DNA from: an uncultured bacterium
GTDB taxonomy: Bacteria; Latescibacterota; UBA2968; UBA8231
Direction of reading: 5' to 3'
Length of the DNA stretch: 35,188 nt
Assembly (NCBI GenBank): GCA_937942165.1
Contig: CALDFW010000100.1
Coordinates: forward strand, 1-35,188
In this document: in pieces, positions 21,255 through 21,521 of the stretch
Layout: each line of letters begins with the position of its first letter
Position numbering within the stretch: position 1 is the first letter of the stretch
Position numbers and translations under genes: made by a program
The notes under the pieces: model-generated
What the model was told of the DNA's origin: nothing
Database searches by the model: none
Seen by the model: the letters and a program-made list of their open reading frames with translations, nothing else

Positions 21255-21521
21255 CTAACTGTTTTGGGCTAAGTGCGCCTGCACGAGTTCTATCATTTCG
21301 TCGTCATTTATCGCTGATGCGACCATCGCTTTGAATTCTTCAACCGTTATTTTCACTTCCTCCAGGAAGCGTTGATCAGCCGCTCACGGGAACACGTAAT
21401 CACCAATGCGTCCGTCGTTGACGGCACGCGCCTTGTCCGTAATCCGAGCAAGCCAAGGGATTCCACCTATGACCATGCCGCGCGCACGCGGCTTAAAATC
21501 GAGAATTTCCCAATCGCTCAT
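21255..21521 (-). CDS. DUF5069-like protein with in-frame TGA at codon 46: candidate selenoprotein
   Basis: Minus-strand translation from ATG 21521: MSDWEILDFKPRARGMVIGGIPWLARITDKARAVNDGRIGDYVFP-[TGA]-AADQRFLEEVKITVEEFKAMVASAINDDEMIELVQAHLAQNS, ending TAG at 21255-21257. SD GAGAGGAAC. TGA at 21384-21386. Not in the ORF track because each half is below 60 aa. Confidence 0.72.
21354..21371 (-). promoter_or_regulatory. SECIS-like stem-loop downstream of in-frame UGA
   Basis: RNA CGCUUCC-UGGA-GGAAGUG, 7 bp (one G-U), loop second base G, 19 nt between the UGA and the loop. Possible lower stem UCAAC/GUUGA. Confidence 0.55.

Follow-up and report, generated by a model that had tools for sequence, protein, structure and literature searches.

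A conserved hairpin after an in-frame UGA in DUF5069 genes of uncultured bacteria is very probably a selenocysteine insertion signal

Bacterial SECIS (bSECIS) elements are described by the bSECISearch model, restated in PMC13188914, as hairpins with a loop of 3-9 nt, an upper stem of 4-16 bp, a G within the first two loop positions, a UGA-to-loop distance of 16-37 nt and an MFE of at most -7.5 kcal/mol. The same work (2026) provides an inventory of 119 prokaryotic selenoprotein families, and DUF5069 (PF16798) is not among these 119. Here we analysed a hairpin directly following an in-frame UGA in a DUF5069 gene, located on a 35,188-nucleotide stretch of DNA from an uncultured bacterium, the whole of which is referred to as the window. 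Judged from sequence comparison, the hairpin is very probably a genuine bacterial signal for the insertion of selenocysteine (Sec), whose conservation and covariation extend over about 70 related genes, and DUF5069 very probably represents a selenoprotein family of uncultured bacteria that had not yet been listed.

The hairpin and its gene

The gene occupies positions 21255..21521 of the minus strand and comprises 88 codons, with the ATG at 21521, the stop codon TAG at 21255-21257 and a Shine-Dalgarno-like GAGGA (21527..21531, minus strand) 5 nt upstream of the ATG. Codon 46 is the in-frame UGA (21384..21386, minus strand), which read as a stop gives a 45-residue product and read through gives 88 residues. 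The full-length translation matched PF16798 over residues 11-85 (E 6e-16, 59.3 bits against a gathering cut-off of 27), so that the domain lies on both sides of the residue read as Sec (U46); no NCBIfam model matched the protein. Residue 46 aligns with the sole invariant Cys of the homologues, including that in the motif YNCPLD of the solved member 3omd, and Cys is absent elsewhere in the sequence of the Sec protein. The structure model (pLDDT 88.6) shows the DUF5069 domain as short and consisting mostly of helices, with residue 46 immediately before the helix 47-55. Comparison of the model with the PDB gave 3omd as the sole confident match (TM 0.81, rmsd 1.8, though with a Foldseek E of 7e-3), and the sequence profile matched the same structure with an E of 3.5e-16. 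The window protein differs from the described family in its length of about 88 residues, as opposed to 133 model positions, and in the replacement of Cys by Sec. In the window's genome, three DUF5069 domains also occur in tandem in a protein of 441 residues (G000:C113:388-1650, L001-L003), and similar multi-domain forms are found in most relatives.

Read from the sequence, the RNA of the minus strand at 21386-21354 is UGA-GCGGCUGAUCAA-CGCUUCC-UGGA-GGAAGUG. The UGA is followed by a 12-nt spacer (21372..21383; DNA GCGGCTGATCAA), the 5' arm of the stem CGCUUCC (21365..21371; DNA CGCTTCC), the apical loop UGGA (21361..21364; DNA TGGA) and the 3' arm GGAAGUG (21354..21360; DNA GGAAGTG), all on the minus strand, and the stem pairs are, from the base, C-G, G-U, C-G, U-A, U-A, C-G and C-G. 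The anatomy given in the preliminary description, i.e. a 7-bp stem with one G-U pair, a 4-nt loop with G as its second base and a UGA-to-loop distance of 19 nt, proved to be exact. The bare stem-loop has an energy of -8.0 kcal/mol and the 47-nt segment one of -13.3 kcal/mol, and the 7-bp stem was present in every fold of the region. With these values the hairpin falls within every structural bSECIS limit, and in UGGA the G at position 2 is directly followed by a second G. The additional pairing proposed earlier, UCAAC with GUUGA, did not hold: the fold picks another lower pairing, the homologues share none and the consensus retains only six pairs of the upper stem. An Rfam scan of the hairpin region yielded no relevant match.

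Within the window, 54 of 888 TGA triplets (6.1%) precede a hairpin within the published limits and 1.7% precede one equally good, and the shuffle z-scores are modest (-2.0 for the 47 nt, about -0.7 with longer flanks); thus the hairpin from one sequence is suggestive, not decisive. It had initially been put forward as independent support for the selenoprotein reading, and this is upheld by the comparison of homologues described below, but the single-sequence hairpin is weaker evidence than was implied.

Homologues with UGA or Cys and the decoding machinery

Species genomes of GTDB were scanned with an alignment of 11 proteins (A1), which yielded 80 loci; the MAGs that contain them are labelled Latescibacterota, Poribacteria, Gemmatimonadetes and, for a few, with other names. 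None of the A1 search patterns covers the hairpin codons, so the hairpin played no part in the choice of these loci. A second search among 60 relatives detected a short DUF5069 gene in 43 genomes, with one in-frame TGA in 36 of them and without it in seven. Removal of duplicates left 84 unique genes, 73 with TGA and 11 with TGC or TGT at the same site, and counts over these genes are not independent because the genes are related. An extra TGA gene (L191), read separately from the 84, carries TTCCTGGAGGAAGTG. The UGA-to-loop distance is 19 nt in all UGA genes except L102, where one inserted codon places the loop of a complete 7-bp stem (GUAUUCC/GGAAUAC) at 22 nt.

Sec and Cys genes are found in the same surroundings. 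The gene upstream of DUF5069 (21532..22566, minus strand), without a Pfam match, is a conserved neighbour in both Sec and Cys orthologues (33-45% identity in tblastn, 19 loci), and it is preceded by a second neighbour without a Pfam match (22566-22946, minus strand; about 64-76% identity across loci). Downstream lies a conserved glycosyltransferase family 2 gene (20200..21165, minus strand; PF00535, E 2e-24; 75-80% identity, 18 loci). Since the upstream genes (22946-21532), the downstream glycosyltransferase and ArgC-like genes stand beside both forms, Sec and Cys are exchanged at an orthologous site. The hairpin is tied to the UGA and not to Cys: the five top pairs together with the loop UGGA were present in 72 of the 73 TGA genes compared with none of the ten Cys genes scored, the latter having different loops and different residues at the FLEE position. 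The sole TGA gene failing this score for stem and loop was L085. There (2636-2680) the top pair is broken (C.U) and the best fold is weaker and different, which makes this gene a natural test case for drift of the hairpin.

A perfect CGCUUCC/GGAAGUG stem is also found in one Cys (TGT) orthologue (L082, 2637-2670, in genome G003, SLHA01000039.1), with the loop UACA, from which the early G is gone. In G003, which is 86% complete, neither selA nor selB over the cut-off nor a clear tRNA-Sec was found, and loss of the Sec trait from this genome is likely at such completeness. Because the stem is kept, the loop G is gone and the genome is without Sec genes over the cut-off, the L082 stem is apparently a relic SECIS element left after loss of the Sec trait. 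Six other Cys genomes retain selA.

Decoding of Sec is usually inefficient, and the UGA could accordingly be regarded as mainly a regulated stop, with termination or readthrough governed by selenium through the hairpin and a 45-residue product that is functional as well. We consider this improbable, as the DUF5069 domain spans the UGA and conservation goes on beyond it, and as the Cys orthologues yield the full-length form only.

The reading of the UGA as Sec is further consistent with the gene content of the window's genome (73.7% complete, 221 contigs), in which we identified selA (545 bits), selB (351 bits, truncated at a contig end) and selD (353 bits). This selD is of the Sec type, with an in-frame TGA in the motif KTCGUAAK (L064 1396-2532, minus strand), and its UGA is followed at 17 nt by a hairpin of 7 bp with the 4-nt loop GGUC, which provides an internal positive control. 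A tRNA-Sec (selC) over the family cut-off was not found in the window's genome, plausibly owing to the incompleteness of the assembly. Strong tRNA-Sec matches (>=65 bits) were present in 34 of the 36 UGA genomes, the window's genome counted among the 36, and the two genomes without one, the window's and G009, are both near 75% completeness; selA was detected in all 36 (35 over the cut-off, one as a contig-end fragment). The missing tRNA-Sec match in the window's genome, together with the Cys of the orthologues, might speak for a UGA read as Cys, Trp or Gly through an altered code or a suppressor tRNA, the hairpin having another role, e.g. in pausing. This is even less probable than a regulated stop: TGA is the ordinary stop of many other window genes, which speaks against a reassigned UGA, and a global code change needs no hairpin. 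Moreover, selA, selB and the Sec-type selD are present, nearly all UGA relatives possess tRNA-Sec, and the hairpin goes with UGA.

Codon use, recoding and covariation

Among the 72 gap-free TGA genes, the codons +6 to +9, which encode the stem top and the loop, are locked (F as TTC in 72/72, L as CTG in 72/72, E as GAG in 71/71 and E as GAA in 69/69), and residue changes inside FLEE comprise D at the third place in L085 and G at the fourth place in three genes. Other degenerate invariant residues use 2-6 codons; L(-22) and R(-20) use six each, and F(+17) uses TTC and TTT equally. We compared the native hairpins with a synonymous null, in which the peptide was fixed and codons were redrawn per locus from its own usage. 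The mean hairpin energy of the TGA genes was -6.9 kcal/mol for the native and -2.6 kcal/mol for the recoded sequences, the corresponding values for the window gene being -8.0 and -2.3 kcal/mol (p 0.01) and for the Cys genes -2.45 and about -1.9 (-1.88) kcal/mol.

The pairs of both stem arms were counted in 64 distinct sequences of TGA homologues, in which 93.5% of cells are paired versus 78.6% in shuffled alignments (0/500 shuffles as high). Conservation and covariation of the stem were confirmed by a score of 0.312, compared with 0.082 for shuffled alignments (0/500) and 0.000-0.112 for slid structures. Pair 18/31 occurs as GC in 50, CG in 13 and AU in one of the 64 sequences, and pair 17/32 as UA in 29, AU in 22, GU in seven, GC in three and other combinations in three, while pair 16/33 is formed in only 39. 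The loop UGGA is identical in 37/37 distinct hairpin sequences of UGA genes. Changes of stem pairs coincide with changes of the amino acids flanking FLEE (K...L, R/H...V, M...H, V...Y), and the combinations K-FLEE-L, H/R-FLEE-V and M-FLEE-H offer a neat case of a peptide sequence dictated by RNA structure. When the hairpin and Sec columns were left out of tree building, the resulting tree, with poorly resolved forks, required at least eight changes for pair 17/32 and at least two for pair 18/31; in the tree-based test of independent pairs, the supported contrasts were too few for a p-value.

That a nonsense mutation or a sequencing error simply interrupts the gene, the hairpin being a by-product of coding FLEEV, has hardly any probability left, even though FLEE can be coded as the near-palindrome TTCCTGGAGGAA and the single-sequence statistics are modest: a pseudogene or sequencing error was ruled out by the same TGA in 73 unique genes and by a downstream frame that stays conserved among the homologues, and a coding by-product by the energy lost on synonymous recoding and by codons locked only at the hairpin.

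Proposed decoding, function and comparison with known selenoproteins

The anatomy, conservation, covariation and codon lock of the hairpin, the Cys/Sec exchange at orthologous sites and a genome with selA, selB and a Sec-type selD were observed, and on this basis the window hairpin is very probably a functional bacterial SECIS element with UGA46 read as Sec. By analogy with known Sec decoding, a complex of SelB, Sec-tRNA(Sec) and GTP would recognise the stem-loop, the loop of which lies 19 nt after the UGA, and deliver Sec at the ribosome, whereby UGA46 would be translated as Sec and termination at 45 residues avoided. In the structure model, Sec would stand where a helix begins, at the position of the invariant family Cys. 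The standard code reads Sec-DUF5069 genes as 45-residue fragments, so these genes will likely be missed or mis-annotated.

Seventeen of the 80 loci, each of them from the clade to which the window belongs, carry directly after DUF5069 a gene for a protein with an NAD-binding oxidoreductase domain (PF00175, E 2.8e-13) (L068 2769-3659; same place in L066, L067, L069-L081, L084 and L057). Neither the window locus nor L082 has this flavin-reductase-like gene, and a search of the rest of the window's genome did not detect it. The lone Sec at a helix start and the NAD-binding, flavin-reductase-like neighbour in many orthologues lead us to a guess of modest strength, namely a one-selenol redox or thiol-exchange role of Sec-DUF5069, a guess that is weakened by the absence of this neighbour at the window itself. 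A broader picture can be offered only tentatively: Sec-DUF5069 might act as a one-selenol enzyme or redox adaptor, partnered by the NAD-binding flavin reductase encoded next to it, and be widespread among uncultured lineages that are mostly marine (Latescibacterota, Poribacteria and relatives), with Sec maybe the older state in the clade and several conversions to Cys leaving relic SECIS stems. With its small size, its one Sec, a Cys relative of solved structure (3omd) and its conserved neighbours, this protein makes the function of an uncharacterised family readily accessible to study.

The literature searched, to which supplementary files and subscription journals did not belong, contained neither the term "DUF5069" nor work on selenoproteins from these phyla, and an earlier mention of a DUF5069 selenoprotein is possible, e.g. 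in the groundwater MAG survey cited in PMC13188914. The evidence for what would be a new selenoprotein family is unusually clean: the codons are locked, the stem covaries and Cys orthologues have lost the hairpin. Sec-DUF5069 resembles the 119 families of PMC13188914 in its Cys/Sec exchange, its bSECIS element and the Cys orthologues in relatives, but it has neither a second Cys nor a UxxC/CxxU motif, so that its motif is a lone Sec (PUxxD). The hairpin of selD in the same genome shares with that of DUF5069 the in-frame TGA, the 7-bp stem, the 4-nt loop and a stem ending in UCC/GGA under the loop; it differs in the loop sequence (GGUC versus UGGA) and in its distance from the UGA (17 versus 19 nt), and the encoded protein is unrelated. 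Like the elements of the bSECISearch model (PMC13188914), the DUF5069 hairpin lies inside the ORF just past the UGA and has a 7-bp stem and a 4-nt loop whose second and third bases are G, whereas it is unusually uniform, the UGGA loop and the UUCC/GGAA stem top being nearly invariant across the family because they also encode the conserved FLEE. As a bSECIS element the hairpin is ordinary, and what appears to be new is DUF5069 as a selenoprotein family.
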